Assembly: GCA_030671095.1 (NCBI GenBank)
Contig: DAOVAK010000116.1
Span: forward strand, 1-7,468
From: Deltaproteobacteria bacterium
GTDB lineage: Bacteria > Desulfobacterota > DSM-4660 > Desulfatiglandales > HGW-15
Length of the DNA: 7,468 nucleotides
Direction of reading: 5' to 3'
The notes under the pieces were generated by a model. It was given only the letters and a program-made list of their open reading frames with translations. It made no database searches and was not told where the DNA came from. This document shows positions 1 through 7,273 of the stretch, piece after piece. The stretch's first letter is position 1; every line of letters starts with the position of its first letter. A program made the position numbers and the translations under genes.

Positions 1-378
1 TGTATTAACTGTTATAACTGCCGGGTCGCTTGCCCTGTTTGCTACTGCAAAGAGTGTGTCTTTGTGACCGATGTATTCGACCATGAACCTTCCCAGTATC
101 TGCGGTGGGCCAAGCGGAAAGGCATCCTCAAAATGCCCAGCGACACGGTCTTTTATCATATTACCCGTTTGGCACATATGAGTACGGCTTGTATCGGCTG
201 TGGCCAGTGTTCCAATGCCTGTCCCAACAATATTCCAGTCATGGAGATTTTTCGAACCGTTGCCAATTATACCCAGAAGGCCTTTGACTATGTGGCTGGC
301 CGTAGTGTTGAGGATGAGCCTCCCCTTTCGGTATTTCGCGAAGCAGAGTTCCAGGAGGTTACTGGAGGAAAGGATTAG
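1..378 (+). CDS. FdhB/FrhB-like iron-sulfur electron-transfer subunit, C-terminal part (5' truncated)
   Basis: This is the last 125 residues of a protein that begins before the window; the frame is open from base 1. A cysteine-rich segment opens it: C1, C4, C7, C11-P, then C14, C16 and C19. A second ferredoxin motif, CIGCGQCSNACP, lies at residues 64-75 (C64, C67, C70, C74). The linker contains WAKRKGILKMPSDT and an HITRLAHM stretch. From memory this matches the C-terminal region of FdhB/FrhB-like proteins (coenzyme F420 hydrogenase/dehydrogenase beta family), which in anaerobic bacteria pass electrons between formate dehydrogenase or NAD(P)H and Hdr complexes. The flavin-binding core would be upstream and cannot be seen. 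A GTG at 64 could be taken for a start, but it would cut off the first cluster motif. The gene lies on the same strand as hdrA, 385 bp upstream. The exact electron donor is unknown. Confidence 0.75.
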   Translation, partial: CINCYNCRVACPVCYCKECVFVTDVFDHEPSQYLRWAKRKGILKMPSDTVFYHITRLAHMSTACIGCGQCSNACPNNIPVMEIFRTVANYTQKAFDYVAGRSVEDEPPLSVFREAEFQEVTGGKD

Positions 379-763: not shown

Positions 764-3700
764 ATGAAGAAGAAAATTGGCTCCGCTTTAGTGGTGGGAA
801 CAGGGATCAGCGGTATCCGCTCCGCCCTTGATTTGGCAGAAACGGGCTACCAAGTTACACTTGTGGACAAGGCGCCCAATCTGGGCGGGATCTTGACCCA
901 GTTGGATTACCAGTTTCCCACGGATCACTGCGGAATGTGTAAAATGCTTCCCCTCGTGGAGCGTGATGCATCTTCCCAATTCTGTCTGCGCAAGGGCCTA
1001 TTTCACGAAAACATCGATATCATGCTCTCCACGGAGCTGGCAACCTTGGAGGGAGAACCCGGAAAATTCCAGGTCACATTGCGTCAGAAACCCGCTCTGG
1101 TGGATCCAGAGCGCTGCATTGGCTGTGGGGAGTGCTCTCGAGTCTGCCCCGTTGAAGTGCCTGATGAATTCAATGCGGGGCTTACCATGCGCAAGGCGGT
1201 CTACCTCCCCGTACCCCACAACATTCCCAATAATTATGTGGTCGATGTGGCCTCGTGCACCCTCTGCGGAGAATGTGAAAAGATCTGTCCCACCCGGGCC
1301 ATTGATTTCGGGCTAGAAGCCCGCAAGGCGTTTCGCATTCTGGTGGTAGACGACGAGCTGGTGGTTCGTGATTCCCTTAAAGAATGGCTGACGGAGGAAG
1401 GTTTCCAGGTGGATATGGCCGAATCCGGAATGGAGGCCCTAGACAGGGTGACCAAGGATGTCTACCATCTCATGCTTTTGGATATCAAAATGCCAGGCAT
1501 GGACGGTGTGGAGGTCCTCAAACGGTCCAAGGATATCCGCCCAGAACTTCCGGTGGTGATGATGACGGCCTATGCTACCGTGGAGACTGCCGTTGAAGCC
1601 ATGAAGATTGGCGCCTTGGATTACCTGATGAAACCCTTTGATCCGGATAGTCTGGTGCCTCTGATTGTCCAGCTATACCAGAAAATTGAACGCGCCGGCG
1701 AGCGTCAGATAGAAGTGGGATCCGTGATTCTTGCTGCCGGCTTTGAATCCTTTGACCCGGGGTCAGATAGGAATCTCTACGGTTACGGTGTTCTTCCTAA
1801 TGTGGTCACAAGTATTGAGTTCGAACGTTTGCTTAGCGGCACCGGACCCAATCATGGAAGGCTCTTGAGTCCCAGTGATGGCAAAGAGATCAGCAAGATA
1901 GCATGGCTCCAGTGTGTGGGGTCCCGAGATCCCCAATCGGGTGCCGACTTCTGCTCCTCCGCCTGCTGTATGTTCGCCATCAAGGAAGCGCTTCTTGCAA
2001 AGGAAAAGAGTGGGGGTCAGGTGGATACATCCATCTTCTATATGGACATGCGGACCTTTGGAAAAGACTTCCAGCGTTACAGGGATCGAGCAGAAAAGGA
2101 GTATGGCGTTCGCTTCCTGAGAAACAGGGTGCACACTGTCGAATCTTCCGGGAACAATGGGGACTTAATTGTCGGCTACGCAGATACGGGCGGCAATATA
2201 CATGAAGAGACTTTTGACATGGTTGTACTCGCTGCTGGCCAAAGACCGCCTGCAGCCACCGAGGAATTGGCGGAAATGACCGGCATGGAACTGAACCCAT
2301 GGGGTCACTCTCAGTTGGAACCCTTCTCACTGAGTCGCACCAGTCAGGAAGGCATCCTGGTAGGGGGATCCTTTTCCGGGCTTCGGGATATCTCCGAATC
2401 CGTGATTCAGGCGAATTCTGCCTCCTTGTCGGCATCCAGATTGATCCATTCGAAAGGGGGTGGCCTAGCCGAGGAACCTAGCCCTGAAGCCGCTTTTCGA
2501 GATGTATCCCGAGAGATGCCGCAAATGTCAGTCTCATTATGCACTTGCGGGGGCGCTTTGTCAGAAGCAGCGGAGCTAAGTTCACTGGCAGATTGGCTTG
2601 AGGGGCAAGACTCTGTGAGTCGGGTGAACTCTATGGAGGGCATCTGTACTCAGGGGGGCTGGGAGGAACTCAAGGAGAAAATAAAAGAGACTGAGGCGAA
2701 CCGCGTTCTGATTGCCGCGTGCATGCCCTACATATATGCCTCAAAGTTGAGGGAACTTGGTGAGAGTGTTGGACTAAATCCCTCTTTGATCGATGTGGTG
2801 GACATTCGCACCCGGGCGTTCCCAGGGCGTGAAGAGGATAAGGCACAAGTAACGAGTCATATTCGTTCAGTGATTTCCATGGGGATAAGTAAGCTAAAAG
2901 GCATGGATCCTGCACCCACACCCATACGCCGAATCAAACAGAAGGCCCTGGTGGTGGGTGGCGGAATTGCTGGGATGACTGCAGCCCTCGGCATTGCCGA
3001 CCATGGATTTGAGGTGAGCCTGGTGGAACAGGCCGAAGAATTGGGAGGTAATCTCCGATTACTCTATCGGACCATTCAAGGCGATTCCCCCCAAGAACTT
3101 CTGGAGGAGATGGTCTCCAAAGTGGAAAAACATCCCCTCATCAACGTGTACAAAAAAGCCAAAGTCATCCATTCCCTGGGTCATGTGGGCCGTTTTTTGA
3201 CCACCATTGAGAAAGAAGATGGTGCGGCCGAAACCCTTGACCATGGGGTGACCGTGCTGGCCACTGGAGGCATGGAAGCCAAGACCGAGAGTTATTCCTA
3301 TGGGAAAAGCGAGGCCATCGTTACCCAGCATGAACTGGAGGGAAAGATTGCCGAGGGAGGCGTAGATCCTGCCACTCTCAGCGCCGTGGCCATGATTCAG
3401 TGCGTGGATTCCAGGGAAGAGCCTCGCAACTACTGCAGCCGCATCTGCTGCACATCAGCCTTGAAAAACGCCCTCTACCTCAAAGAACAGAATCCAGAGA
3501 CTGCCGTCTATATTTTCTACAGGGATATCATGACCTATGGCTTCCTGGAGACCTATTACACCCAGGCGCGCAAAGCGGGGGTCATTTTTGTCCAATACGA
3601 AGTCGATCAGAAGCCTCAAGTGACTGTAGAGAACGGTAGACCCTTGATCTCTGCCACCGACCCAATCCTCGGCCGAAGCTTTCAGATCCAACCTGACTTG

Positions 3701-4192
3701 CTGGTTCTTGGTACAGGGATTGTCCCCAGTAACGGAAGAGAGCTGGCTGACCTGTTCGGGGTAGAAGTCAACGAAGATGGTTTTTTCCAAGAGGCCGAAT
3801 ATAAATGGCGACCCGTGGACTTCCTAAAAGAAGGCATCTTCATGGCTGGCATCGCCCATTCACCCCGCTCCGTCACCGAGTCCATTGCCATGGCAGAGGC
3901 TGCGGCACAGCGCGCACTCAGGATCTTGAACAGCGAAAGATTGGCCGCAGGAGGCATCGTGGCTGAGGTGCGGCATAGCCTCTGCTCCCTTTGTGAGCGA
4001 TGTATTGACGCCTGTCCCTACGGTGCACGAGTGTTAGATGAGGAAGAGCAAAAGGTTATTGTTGATGAGCTGATGTGCCAGGGCTGCGGCTCCTGTGCCG
4101 CTGTTTGCCCCAATAGCGCGTCGGTCTTACGTGGCTATCGGGACCAGCAGATGTTTGAGGTCATTGATGCAGCCCTGGAAGCGATGTTTTAG
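764..4192 (+). CDS. hdrA: Double-module HdrA flavoprotein with an internal response-regulator receiver domain
   Basis: HdrA is the FAD and iron-sulfur core of cytoplasmic heterodisulfide reductase complexes, where it splits or merges electron pairs. This 1142-residue copy is far longer than a usual HdrA (about 650). Module 1 has a GxGxxG FAD motif at 12-17, HCGMC at 55-59, and two ferredoxin motifs (C118/121/124/128 and C165/168/171/175). A receiver domain follows at about 190-309. The flavoprotein fold then resumes, with CVGSR (C384) and the cluster cysteines C397, C401 and C402. Module 2 resembles a complete HdrA: an N-terminal domain (CTCGG from C593, plus C628 and C653), a second GxGxxG at 732-737, C880/891/895/896, and two C-terminal ferredoxin motifs (C1074/1077/1080/1084 and C1105/1108/1111/1115). 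No membrane segment is visible, so it is probably cytoplasmic. The ATG follows a weak AAGGGA (749-754). The gene lies between an FdhB-like gene and hdrCB, as expected for a bifurcating complex. Confidence 0.93.
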   Translation: MKKKIGSALVVGTGISGIRSALDLAETGYQVTLVDKAPNLGGILTQLDYQFPTDHCGMCKMLPLVERDASSQFCLRKGLFHENIDIMLSTELATLEGEPGKFQVTLRQKPALVDPERCIGCGECSRVCPVEVPDEFNAGLTMRKAVYLPVPHNIPNNYVVDVASCTLCGECEKICPTRAIDFGLEARKAFRILVVDDELVVRDSLKEWLTEEGFQVDMAESGMEALDRVTKDVYHLMLLDIKMPGMDGVEVLKRSKDIRPELPVVMMTAYATVETAVEAMKIGALDYLMKPFDPDSLVPLIVQLYQKIERAGERQIEVGSVILAAGFESFDPGSDRNLYGYGVLPNVVTSIEFERLLSGTGPNHGRLLSPSDGKEISKIAWLQCVGSRDPQSGADFCSSACCMFAIKEALLAKEKSGGQVDTSIFYMDMRTFGKDFQRYRDRAEKEYGVRFLRNRVHTVESSGNNGDLIVGYADTGGNIHEETFDMVVLAAGQRPPAATEELAEMTGMELNPWGHSQLEPFSLSRTSQEGILVGGSFSGLRDISESVIQANSASLSASRLIHSKGGGLAEEPSPEAAFRDVSREMPQMSVSLCTCGGALSEAAELSSLADWLEGQDSVSRVNSMEGICTQGGWEELKEKIKETEANRVLIAACMPYIYASKLRELGESVGLNPSLIDVVDIRTRAFPGREEDKAQVTSHIRSVISMGISKLKGMDPAPTPIRRIKQKALVVGGGIAGMTAALGIADHGFEVSLVEQAEELGGNLRLLYRTIQGDSPQELLEEMVSKVEKHPLINVYKKAKVIHSLGHVGRFLTTIEKEDGAAETLDHGVTVLATGGMEAKTESYSYGKSEAIVTQHELEGKIAEGGVDPATLSAVAMIQCVDSREEPRNYCSRICCTSALKNALYLKEQNPETAVYIFYRDIMTYGFLETYYTQARKAGVIFVQYEVDQKPQVTVENGRPLISATDPILGRSFQIQPDLLVLGTGIVPSNGRELADLFGVEVNEDGFFQEAEYKWRPVDFLKEGIFMAGIAHSPRSVTESIAMAEAAAQRALRILNSERLAAGGIVAEVRHSLCSLCERCIDACPYGARVLDEEEQKVIVDELMCQGCGSCAAVCPNSASVLRGYRDQQMFEVIDAALEAMF
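1331..1690 (+). other. Receiver (REC) domain inserted within HdrA, residues ~190-309
   Basis: This is a domain within hdrA, not a separate gene. Every residue needed for a working phosphoacceptor is visible. The acidic pair D196-D197 lies in ILVVDDE, the phosphorylatable aspartate D240 in LLLDIKMPGMDG, the switch threonine T268 in VVMMTAYA, and the lysine K290 in YLMKPFD. The domain sits right after the second ferredoxin motif (C175-P) and just before the flavoprotein fold resumes at VGSVILAAGFE (319-329). The frame is continuous through both joints. Its sequence most resembles NtrC-type receivers. It would let a sensor kinase alter HdrA activity or complex assembly. No histidine kinase is in the window. 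Confidence 0.95.
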
Positions 4193-4297: not shown

Positions 4298-4876
4298 ATG
4301 ATGGAACAGAACCTTGATATGGCAAACCAGGCCCATGAATCCGTTTCTGAGGATCTTATGGCAGATATCCAAGAGACGGTTCAGGCCTGTATACAATGCG
4401 GCACGTGTAGCGGTTCTTGCGCCAATTCCTTTGCCATGGACCTTACGCCGCGGCAGGTATGGAGACTCGCCCAATTGGGGGAGAAGGAAGAGATCTTCAA
4501 CAGTACCACCTTCTATCTCTGTTCCGCCTGCTATTACTGCACCCTTCGCTGCCCAAGGGGGCTTCCTCTGACGGACGCAATGAGTGCCTTGAAGAGGCTG
4601 GCAGCCTGGGACGGGATACGGAAGTACAAGCAGAGCTCAAACTTCTACAAGACCTTCATGGACACCGTTCGGCGCTATGGTCGAATAAGAGAGGCAGAGT
4701 TCATGAACCGTTATTTCCTCTCCATGATGAATCCCTTCCTACCACTGGGCTTCGTTTCAATGGGAATGAAGCTCATGAAAAAAAGGAAGATACCGCTGGA
4801 GATACCCAAGTTGTTCGGGGAAGGGAGATTTGACAGGCTATTTCGCAAGGTGGAAGAATTGGAGGCGAGACCATGA
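4298..4876 (+). CDS. hdrC: Heterodisulfide reductase subunit C (two 4Fe-4S clusters)
   Basis: This 192-residue protein has the HdrC plan: two ferredoxin-type motifs, CIQCGTCSGSC (C31, C34, C37, C41) and CSACYYCTLRCP (C75, C78, C81, C85). The motif PRQVWRLAQLG at 51-61 between them is typical of the family. The basic C-terminal half (MKKRKIP at 164-170) has no clear motif. HdrC relays electrons from HdrA to the non-cubane clusters of HdrB. The start at 4298 has AAGGGGG at 4281-4287, ten bases upstream; a second ATG at 4301 follows directly. The purine-rich site lies in a small palindrome, CCCTTTGAAGGG (4274-4285), which might modulate initiation. The gene begins 105 bp after hdrA, and its stop codon overlaps the start of hdrB, so C and B are probably translationally coupled. 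Confidence 0.93.
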   Translation: MMEQNLDMANQAHESVSEDLMADIQETVQACIQCGTCSGSCANSFAMDLTPRQVWRLAQLGEKEEIFNSTTFYLCSACYYCTLRCPRGLPLTDAMSALKRLAAWDGIRKYKQSSNFYKTFMDTVRRYGRIREAEFMNRYFLSMMNPFLPLGFVSMGMKLMKKRKIPLEIPKLFGEGRFDRLFRKVEELEARP

Positions 4877-5742
4877 AGTACATCTACTATCCTGGCTGCA
4901 CTCTGGAGACGACTGCCCTCGAATACAATGAATCAACCCAGGCGGCGATGCAGGCGCTGGGTGCGGAGTTGGTGGAAATAGAGGACTGGAATTGTTGCGG
5001 GGCGGCTGCGGCGGAGGCGACCAGCCATCTCCTCGCCATGGTCCTTGGTGCCCGTAACCTCGCCATGGCTGAGAAGATGGACACTGATGGCGATTTGCTG
5101 ATCCCCTGCAGCGGCTGTTATCTCAACCTGAGAAAGGTGGAAGATCACGTCCACAAAGAGGAAGGACTCTTAGGCAAGGTCAACGAGGCCCTGAAGGAAG
5201 AGGACTTACATTACAAAGGCGGAATAAAGGTGCGCCATCTTCTGGACGTGTTGGCCCGTGACTTTGATCCCAAATCTATAAAGCGCTTAGTAAAGAAGGA
5301 TGTGTCGGGTCTCAAAGTGGCCCCCTATTATGGCTGCCAGGCACTACGTCCCTATCCCGATTTCGATGATCCACAAGAGCCCCGATCCATGGAGCCGGTG
5401 ATTGAGGCCCTGGGCGCAGAAGTCCATCCCTGGACGGTGGGGAGCAAATGTTGCGGTGCGGCGATCATGAACACCAAAAAGGATGTGGCCCTGGAGCTTA
5501 CAGGTGGCATCTTAAAAGAGGCTAAAGGGGCAGACTGTGTGGTCACTGTCTGTCCCATGTGCCAGTTGAACCTGGAAGCCTATCAGAAACCGATCTCCCA
5601 GGCACAAGGGGAAGATGTGAGTATCTCCATTCTCTATCTCCCTCAACTTATGGGGGTTGCATTTGGTCTGTCCAAAAAAGACCTGAAATTGAATCTAAAC
5701 CTGGCTTTGACCAAGTCGCTCAAGGAAAAGCTGGGAATTTAA
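4873..5742 (+). CDS. hdrB: Heterodisulfide reductase subunit B (two complete CCG motifs)
   Basis: HdrB is the catalytic subunit that reduces a disulfide, or a related acceptor, on paired non-cubane 4Fe-4S clusters. Both CCG motifs are intact in this 289-residue protein. The first is C9 (YYPGC), C41-C42 (WNCCGA), then C79 and C82 (IPCSGC). The second is C155 (YYGC), C193-C194 (SKCCGA), then C227 and C230 (VCPMC). The length matches the family. The start codon overlaps the hdrC stop as ATGA (4873-4876), and GGAGG at 4861-4865 is seven bases upstream. The physiological disulfide is not evident: bacteria of this kind lack the coenzyme M/coenzyme B pair of methanogens, and in related systems the acceptor is often unknown. 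Confidence 0.94.
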   Translation: MKYIYYPGCTLETTALEYNESTQAAMQALGAELVEIEDWNCCGAAAAEATSHLLAMVLGARNLAMAEKMDTDGDLLIPCSGCYLNLRKVEDHVHKEEGLLGKVNEALKEEDLHYKGGIKVRHLLDVLARDFDPKSIKRLVKKDVSGLKVAPYYGCQALRPYPDFDDPQEPRSMEPVIEALGAEVHPWTVGSKCCGAAIMNTKKDVALELTGGILKEAKGADCVVTVCPMCQLNLEAYQKPISQAQGEDVSISILYLPQLMGVAFGLSKKDLKLNLNLALTKSLKEKLGI

Positions 5743-5910: not shown

Positions 5911-7212
5911 ATGGAGGCAATGACCATTAATCCAAAAGAGAGCAAATTGAGGGTAGCCCCCGAATGGGCCGATGTCTGCTTCACATGCGGAACGTGTGCC
6001 AGTGGCTGCCCGATCACAGGTGTGGACGGCCTGGACCCCAGAAAGGCGATCCGAATGGCCGCTCTGGGACTGGACCAGGAGCTGGTTGATTCCCGCTTCC
6101 CTTGGATATGCACCCTGTGCGGGCGGTGTGAATATGCCTGTCCTCAAGGGGTAGAGCTGCTGAAGACCTTTCGCAGGGCCAGAACCCTGAGAGAAAGGGA
6201 TAAGGTGCCAGGCCCTATCCATAAGGGTGTGGTCATGGATCTGGAGAGGGGGAACAATCTGGGGATCCCAAAGGATGACTTTCTCTTTCTCCTGGCCGAC
6301 CTGGCTAAAGAGATGGATGAGGATGAAGGATTCCCTGGGTTTTATGTCCCGGTGGATAAGAAGGGCGCCAATATGTTGGTGACCGTCAACTCCAAGGAAC
6401 CCTTTGGCGAGCCGGATGACATGAAATTCTGGTGGCGCATCTTTTACTGTGCCAAAGAAGACTGGACCGTTCCTTCGGAGAACTGGGAGGGGGTCAACTG
6501 GGGCCTCTTCTCAGGGGATGATGAGGCCTGGAAGACACTTGTGGGCCGAATTGTGGAGAACATGGAGCGGCTGGAGTGTAAGACGCTCCTGTTGCCCGAA
6601 TGAGGGCACGCCTACTTTGCGACCCGTGTTGGTCTGCAAAATTGGTTCCCGGAAGTATTGGAAAAGTACAAAGTTGTTTCTGTTCACGACCTCCTGAAAG
6701 AATACATTGAAACGGGACGGATCAAGGTTGACAAATCCATCCATGAGGAGCTGACAACCGTACATGATCCCTGTAATTACGGACGTAAAAGTCAAAAGGC
6801 CGTGGGACACGCCTATTTTGAAGAGCCCAGGTGGGTCACCCAGCAGTGTTGTGAAAACTATGTGGAGATGTACCCCAACCGGATGAACAACTTCTGCTGC
6901 GGGGCCGGGGGTGGTGCCTGGGCCATGCCCTATGAGCAAGAGAGGATTTACTACGGCCGGGTGAAGGCAAAACAAATCATGGATACGGGCGCGAAACTGG
7001 TCATTGCCCCTTGCCATAATTGCCGCGATCAGATCATGAAGTCCTTGACCAAAGAATTTGATCTGGGTATTGAGACCAAGTATCTCTGGGAACTGGTGGC
7101 CGATTCCCTGATCGTTGAGCCCTGGAGCGAGGATGAAATCAAGAAGGCCCATGAACTGAGGGATGCCCAGTACGAAAGGGACGGGGTTGATCTGGAGGAG
7201 GAGTGGGGATAG
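5911..7212 (+). CDS. HdrD-like iron-sulfur oxidoreductase, probable selenoprotein (Sec231 at UGA 6601-6603)
   Basis: Read through one in-frame TGA, this is a 433-residue fusion of an HdrC-like and an HdrB-like part, the plan of HdrD, DsrK and TmcB relatives. Residues 23-33 and 67-77 hold two ferredoxin motifs (CFTCGTCASGCP and CTLCGRCEYACP). The central part (about 150-245) is a degenerate first CCG region. Its most conserved stretch reads LLLPE-U-GHAYFATR, with the TGA where relatives, from memory, have Cys. The C-terminal CCG motif is complete: C288 (HDPC), C329-C330 (NFCCGAGGG), C368 and C371 (APCHNC). An extra pair, C313-C314, lies between. No frame change occurs at 6601, no good start follows it, and homology-like sequence continues at once, so a true stop is unlikely. 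Without readthrough the product would lose its catalytic cluster domain. No membrane segment is seen. It probably acts with HdrABC as an extra or alternative terminal subunit; the substrate is unknown. Confidence 0.88.
6616..6640 (+). promoter_or_regulatory. Bacterial SECIS-like hairpin downstream of the UGA codon
   Basis: TTTGC (6616-6620) pairs with GCAAA (6636-6640), and GACC (6621-6624) pairs with GGTC (6631-6634). This leaves one bulged T at 6635 and a six-base loop, CGTGTT (6625-6630). All nine pairs are Watson-Crick. The loop begins 22 bases after the UGA and has G as its second base followed by U. That agrees with the known bacterial SECIS requirements: a short stem, a loop roughly 16-37 bases downstream, and a G among the first two loop bases. 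E. coli fdhF also has a bulged U, but on the 5' side of its stem. The hairpin lies inside the coding sequence and would bind SelB. Confidence 0.82.
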
Positions 7213-7241
7213 AATTTCATAACGTTATAGACGAGCATTGG

Positions 7242-7273
7242 AGAGCCCCGCCTAAACGGGGCTCTTTTATTTT
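7242..7273 (+). terminator. Rho-independent terminator of the hdr cluster
   Basis: A perfect nine-pair stem, AGAGCCCCG (7242-7250) with CGGGGCTCT (7257-7265), encloses a six-base loop. It runs straight into TTTTATTTT. It lies 30 bases after the stop at 7210-7212, so the hdr transcript probably ends here. Confidence 0.93.

Follow-up and report, generated by a model that had tools for sequence, protein, structure and literature searches.

A complete receiver domain inserted in a two-module HdrA-like protein, a possible phosphorylation switch of low-potential electron delivery

The hdrA-type gene described here, from a bacterium of the sulfate-reducer type, encodes a chain of 1142 residues made of two HdrA-like modules, the first of which is interrupted by a complete receiver domain of the CheY type. 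It lies on contig DAOVAK010000116.1, in a forward-strand stretch of 7,468 nt which, taken as a whole, is called the window below. The inserted domain is likely to be a working receiver and is predicted to accept phosphate. In the reading towards which we lean, a kinase would phosphorylate its residue D240, and the receiver would then switch the delivery of low-potential electrons, by changing how the ferredoxin domain moves or how its partner reaches it. The window contains the following features, given with their strand and the basis of each assignment:

1 to 378 (+): C-terminal part of an FrhB/FdhB-type gene (position; 4Fe-4S matches; PF04432 in the complete counterpart at locus L001)
764 to 4192 (+): hdrA, two-module HdrA with inserted receiver, 1142 aa (open reading frame, profile matches, model)
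764 to 1093 (+): module 1, first part of the FAD (thioredoxin-reductase-like) domain, aa 1-110 (Pyr_redox / NAD_binding_8; superposes on HdrA 8rwn_A)
1097 to 1303 (+): inserted ferredoxin domain, aa 112-180 (Fer4_9 at 117-180; invariant columns)
1313 to 1699 (+): whole insert relative to the receiver-less sisters, about aa 184-312 (alignment against L143-L147)
1331 to 1690 (+): receiver domain, aa 190-309, with D196/D197/D240/T268/K290 (PF00072, residues, fold)
1700 to 2458 (+): module 1, remainder of the FAD domain, aa 313-565 (invariant columns; superposition)
2513 to 4138 (+): module 2, aa 584-1125, with an HdrA N-terminal-like part, a second FAD domain and a C-terminal ferredoxin
4298 to 4876 (+): hdrC-like gene, 192 aa (CoB_CoM_SS_C 2.2e-21, below its cut-off)
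4873 to 5742 (+): hdrB-like gene, 289 aa, CCG domains (CCG 1.3e-26; CoB_CoM_SS_B 7.7e-55, below its cut-off)
5911 to 7212 (+): HdrD/TmcB/DsrK-like gene with an in-frame TGA at 6601-6603, candidate selenoprotein (TGA conserved in place)
7240 to 7267 (+): hairpin resembling an intrinsic terminator, 3' of the hdrD-like gene

The receiver is recognized by PF00072 over residues 192-299 with an E-value of 1.7e-31 (109.1 bits against a gathering cut-off of 30.2), on the strength of which a chance match was rejected. Its catalytic set is complete and consists of the acidic pair D196/D197, the phosphoacceptor D240 (codon at 1481-1483), T268 and K290, all intact and at the positions given in the preliminary description of this DNA. 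An AlphaFold2 model of the whole chain, the kind of prediction which that description had proposed, was computed from 50 sequences (mean pLDDT 86.1, pTM 0.86) and recovers the canonical five-fold beta-alpha fold, with D240 at the end of strand 3. Residues 188-312 of the model superpose on the CheY-like chain 3crn_B with 1.4 A over 125 residues, and residues 5-565 on HdrA 8rwn_A with 1.7 A over 414 residues. The insertion point lies at the return from the inserted ferredoxin into the first FAD domain, a place occupied in the receiver-less sisters by a short loop of about 10 residues. The alignment with these relatives thus bears out the earlier placement of the receiver between the ferredoxin part and the rest of the module 1 FAD domain.

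Could such an arrangement be an artefact of assembly or gene calling? A chimeric joint had been a concern from the beginning. The receiver is however present in all 120 listed homologues (the best 120 of 2811 matches, rechecked by profile, a set from which nothing follows for remote homologues), as well as in a chromosome record (CP070689.1) of L001, which is the nearest among the fetched relatives with long flanks; the joint is therefore not chimeric. It is also found on the chromosome of Desulfobacterium autotrophicum HRM2. Nothing was found to support an artefact, and we consider this explanation refuted.

Like the HdrA of methanogen HdrABC (PDB 5odc, 7bkb, 8rvu, 8rwn), the window protein has an FAD domain with an inserted ferredoxin, its second module has an N-terminal-like part and a C-terminal ferredoxin, and its gene is neighboured by hdrC-like and hdrB-like genes. 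Unlike the methanogen protein, it consists of two HdrA-like modules plus a receiver of about 120 residues, and it scores under the curated NCBIfam HdrA cut-offs (NF040770, 724 bits for a cut-off of 1100; NF041891, 572 for 1300; NF041778, 564 for 1400). With all three scores below cut-off, the protein is HdrA-like and is not filed as a CoB-CoM heterodisulfide reductase. Both the C/C-x3-CC cysteine set of HdrA, which we take to lie close to the FAD, and the FAD domain with its inserted 2x[4Fe-4S] ferredoxin are nevertheless present. In the alignment columns, C384, C397, C401 and C402 are invariant in the remainder of the module 1 FAD domain, as are the eight cysteines 118, 121, 124, 128, 165, 168, 171 and 175 in the ferredoxin domain. 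The FAD domain of module 2 has neither an inserted ferredoxin nor a receiver, so module 1 bears the only inserted ferredoxin of the chain. Judged purely by family resemblance, the window complex may be an electron-bifurcating one.

The phosphorylation site is strongly conserved among close relatives. In 121 aligned rows (the window and the best 120 of 2811 homologues), D196 is kept in 121, D197 and T268 in 118 each, K290 in 120, and D240 in 120, the remaining row having a gap. The 27 intact rows, which comprise the window and 26 relatives taken from fetched loci, retain all six checked residues; among them, mean identity reaches 67.5 percent in the receiver versus 53.0 in the rest of the chain, and the receiver is the more conserved part in 351 of 351 pairs. 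L014 was excluded from the conservation count, the fragment L148 was set aside, and L129, L140, L149 and L080-L109 were left out as duplicates or short. A search through a sample of 389 genomes from a single order supplied a fresh set of 40 loci, chosen for room on the contig and for completeness of the genome. Removing three duplicates (L164, L173, L181) and L190, where an antisense frame had been called instead, left 36 loci, every one of which shows D, D, D, T, Y and K at the six positions checked.

A distant clade of five loci (L016, L017, L136, L138 and L142) departs from this pattern. Its phosphosite is broken: D240 itself persists in four members, whereas the acidic pair and T268 have not been retained, and in all 10 pairs the receiver shows lower conservation than the remaining chain. 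The survey of D240 proposed in the preliminary description therefore gives a divided answer, with the residue kept in the close rows and the phosphosite lost in this clade. The degenerate receiver of L017, the one member modelled, is missed by the receiver profile, although a receiver fold is still predicted (pTM 0.84); a structure comparison listed no receiver chain among 50 entries, which is not evidence of a differing fold. Such a combination of broken site and retained fold is what a mere structural spacer, a relic of a former receiver, would look like. As an account of the receiver this is very improbable: the 27 intact rows keep the catalytic residues, their receiver evolves more slowly than the rest of the protein, and the fresh loci are all intact; for the clade of the window the idea is already disfavoured. 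In the five relatives the protein persists although its phosphosite is incomplete; the switch would therefore be dispensable in those five, and their clade constitutes a natural negative control.

Where does the receiver come from? In a tree built without the receiver columns (a quick search without bootstrap), receiver-bearing rows form one clade with an SH-aLRT of 98, nested among receiver-less relatives; L148, a fragment missing the receiver region, falls inside it. On this topology, the receiver would have been gained once. Two-module HdrA proteins without receiver (L018-L021, L075 and L143-L147) can be aligned to the window protein over both modules, and two of them, L144 and L146, have similar neighbours (HdrA-GltD, MvhD and FrhB/FdhB). 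In L144 (4663-7039), the receiver-less sister gene is adjoined by a histidine kinase and two free single-domain receivers, an arrangement that would fit the capture of a receiver by a complex already located near kinase and receiver genes. The HdrA receivers group with those of three USP-receiver-USP proteins (SH-aLRT 96, from 121 columns with many long branches). These proteins are encoded beside the operon in L004 (13166-14485), L022 (2843-4033) and L135 (13207-14520), and at the corresponding place two degenerate-clade loci, L016 and L017, encode a USP-USP protein that lacks a receiver.

Histidine kinases are linked to most of the intact genes. They were detected with profiles built from Pfam-confirmed seeds in mechanically called open reading frames, most relatives being metagenome-assembled; the receiver-less controls were 37 genes from 30 loci, paralogues or relatives hand-picked among the best matches. 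Downstream counts were restricted to genes or loci followed by 5.5 kb of DNA or more. Among the intact loci, 14/20 have a kinase gene no further than 3 kb downstream, compared with 0/5 among the degenerate loci and 3/22 among the receiver-less HdrA genes (Fisher p 3.8e-4 for intact versus receiver-less); at 6 kb the counts rise to 16/20, 2/5 and 6/22, respectively. When both flanks reach at least 7 kb and either side is considered, the corresponding counts are 10/12, 4/5 and 1/12 within 5 kb, and 11/12, 4/5 and 3/12 within 7 kb. Degenerate loci thus do have kinases in their wider neighbourhood, and are set apart only by the close downstream position and by the kinase type. The receiver-less genes also led us to reject close kinases as a trait of every HdrA. 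Their three close downstream kinases belong to L121, L143 and L144, and since the last two are sisters of the receiver clade, the linkage may predate the insertion.

Seventeen intact loci have a same-strand downstream kinase, which in 12 of them starts less than 100 bp past the preceding gene. Kinases with the H-box signatures of the family occur in 18 of 27 intact loci (counting the upstream kinase of L131), in none of the 5 degenerate and none of the 30 receiver-less loci, and also in the fragment L148; the signatures were derived from those same intact loci, so the first count is not independent. In the fresh set, 34 of the 36 loci have a kinase in the flanking DNA fetched (at most 8 kb in each direction), L162 and L196 being the exceptions, and in 27 it lies within 3 kb downstream; L161, L185 and L187 have an upstream kinase only. 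The H-box signatures recur in 25 of these 36, all intact loci with no fresh receiver-less control. Kinases were also seen downstream in L190, outside the 36. In the window itself, a profile search covering its 7,468 nt found no kinase gene; L001 and L131, both near relatives, have their closest kinases about 9 kb upstream. The fetched flanks of L009 and L130, like those of L162 and L196, yielded no kinase, and in L002, L003 and L006 the downstream DNA is too short to judge. The kinase that the preliminary description suggested seeking near hdr loci thus exists beside most examined relatives, but not in the window. Linkage of this kind does not prove phosphotransfer.

Conformational gating has been reported in HdrA complexes, and a passage of the same work presents the inserted ferredoxin-like domain as the anticipated electron exit (PMC12350162). 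Against this background we infer a phosphorylation of D240, a kinase acting on it and a gating step. The histidine kinase, encoded near the operon in most examined relatives, would phosphorylate D240, and the phosphate would change the signalling face of the receiver. The changed face would in turn affect either how the ferredoxin domain moves or how its electron partner gains access, and low-potential electron delivery would thereby be switched by a signal. Grafted onto the exit domain, the receiver may restrain that domain or its partner until phosphorylated. Whether the receiver gates electron flow, as had been suggested at the outset, we regard as evenly balanced. We give a slight preference to the broader proposal that a His-Asp phosphorelay, which in many relatives has kinase types of its own close to the operon, directly and reversibly controls an HdrA-type, possibly bifurcating, enzyme by way of the receiver on its ferredoxin exit domain. 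This would amount to two-component control of energy metabolism without transcription.

The receiver might instead serve as a phosphorylation-dependent docking site, recruiting or releasing a partner (a ferredoxin, a polyferredoxin, HdrD or the USP protein) or setting the assembly or location of the complex, with electron transfer inside the chain left untouched. It adjoins the domain that is named as a partner-binding site in a passage on methanogen HdrA (PMC12350162), and the USP-receiver-USP proteins beside the operon in L004, L022 and L135 carry a receiver of the same lineage (SH-aLRT 96). The data presented here do not separate docking from gating; we rate docking as rather unlikely. The signal could also run in the reverse direction, the redox state of HdrA altering the phosphorylation of the receiver or its lifetime, so that a redox-reading sink would inform the kinases on electron flow. 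This would suit the PAS domains carried by several linked kinases, their hybrid receiver-HATPase partners, and the loci L013, L024 and L141, where the hybrid type alone is found downstream. However, a reader for such a signal, in the form of another receiver gene that is not a kinase, is missing from the downstream stretch in 14 of the 17 loci that have a same-strand kinase there (one could be encoded elsewhere), and we hold reverse signalling to be improbable.

If control of electron delivery by the receiver is real, a central anaerobic redox enzyme would be quickly switched by a sensor kinase. Of the 389 sampled genomes of the single order searched, 130 contain a match of 1e-255 or better, and 120 of the matching rows align without a break from before residue 190 to past 310, across the receiver; the control point would therefore be widespread in anaerobic sediments. 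A sample drawn from the phylum, comprising 395 genomes with two candidates scored in each, gave an HdrA relative at 1e-150 in 274 genomes and the receiver form in at least 15 (L102 included).

Response regulators with enzymatic output, such as CheB and the GGDEF/EAL types, have their receiver fused to an enzyme that is under histidine kinase control. The receiver of HdrA differs from these in that it lies in a loop inside a redox flavoprotein and not at an end, and in that its output would be electron transfer. No description of a receiver in HdrA was found among the literature matches listed (titles and abstract openings). The cultured organism D. autotrophicum HRM2, whose HdrA carries the receiver (PF00072, 5e-27), offers a test case, although the fetched flanks of this gene contain no detected kinase. 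Its gene order is the one seen in many relatives: HdrA-GltD, MvhD, FrhB/FdhB, receiver-HdrA, hdrC-like (Fer4) and hdrB-like (CCG), the last two being of the L004_228 and L004_277 type in the relatives, where they are often followed by a PAS histidine kinase together with a receiver-HATPase hybrid. By our own matching, the HRM2 protein is probably HdrA4 of locus VIII, which is described as a tandem hdrL/hdrA4 with fdhB and hdrBC (PMC2702500). In the main text of that article, the word "receiver" is absent, and "response regulator" occurs once, for a neighbouring gene in the legend of Fig. 4.

The operon neighbours vary. In L001, two kinases, a USP protein and a single receiver are encoded upstream of the operon, and the receiver-HdrA gene is followed by a TetR regulator and ETF genes, with no hdrC-like or hdrB-like gene directly there. 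TetR and ETF subunit genes occupy 11558-14114 in L001 and 3686-6582 in L130, and a CCG/Fer4 protein and acyl-CoA-type genes come further on in L001; this arrangement hints that the operon may be connected with fatty-acid or acyl-CoA metabolism. Another HdrA-like protein of the same operon includes a GltD-like part (Fer4_20, Pyr_redox_2; L001 2707-6126 and counterparts) and is perhaps the entry point for NAD(P)H.

Between the first gene of the window and hdrA lies a long imperfect palindrome (416-716), which as single-stranded DNA folds far better than its shuffles (z -7.67) and whose arms (461-494 and 653-686) are 88 percent complementary. It has no match in four related genomes, which tells nothing either way, and Rfam has no match in the window. 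The in-frame TGA of the HdrD/TmcB/DsrK-like gene is shared by 13 of 16 aligned places (window included), the other three having a Cys codon; hdrD4 of HRM2 is described as selenocysteine-containing in a passage of PMC2702500. Finally, several receiver-less HdrA paralogues of G002, G003 and G005 have a single in-frame TGA within the stretch that corresponds to residues 1 to ~185, possibly encoding selenocysteine as well.
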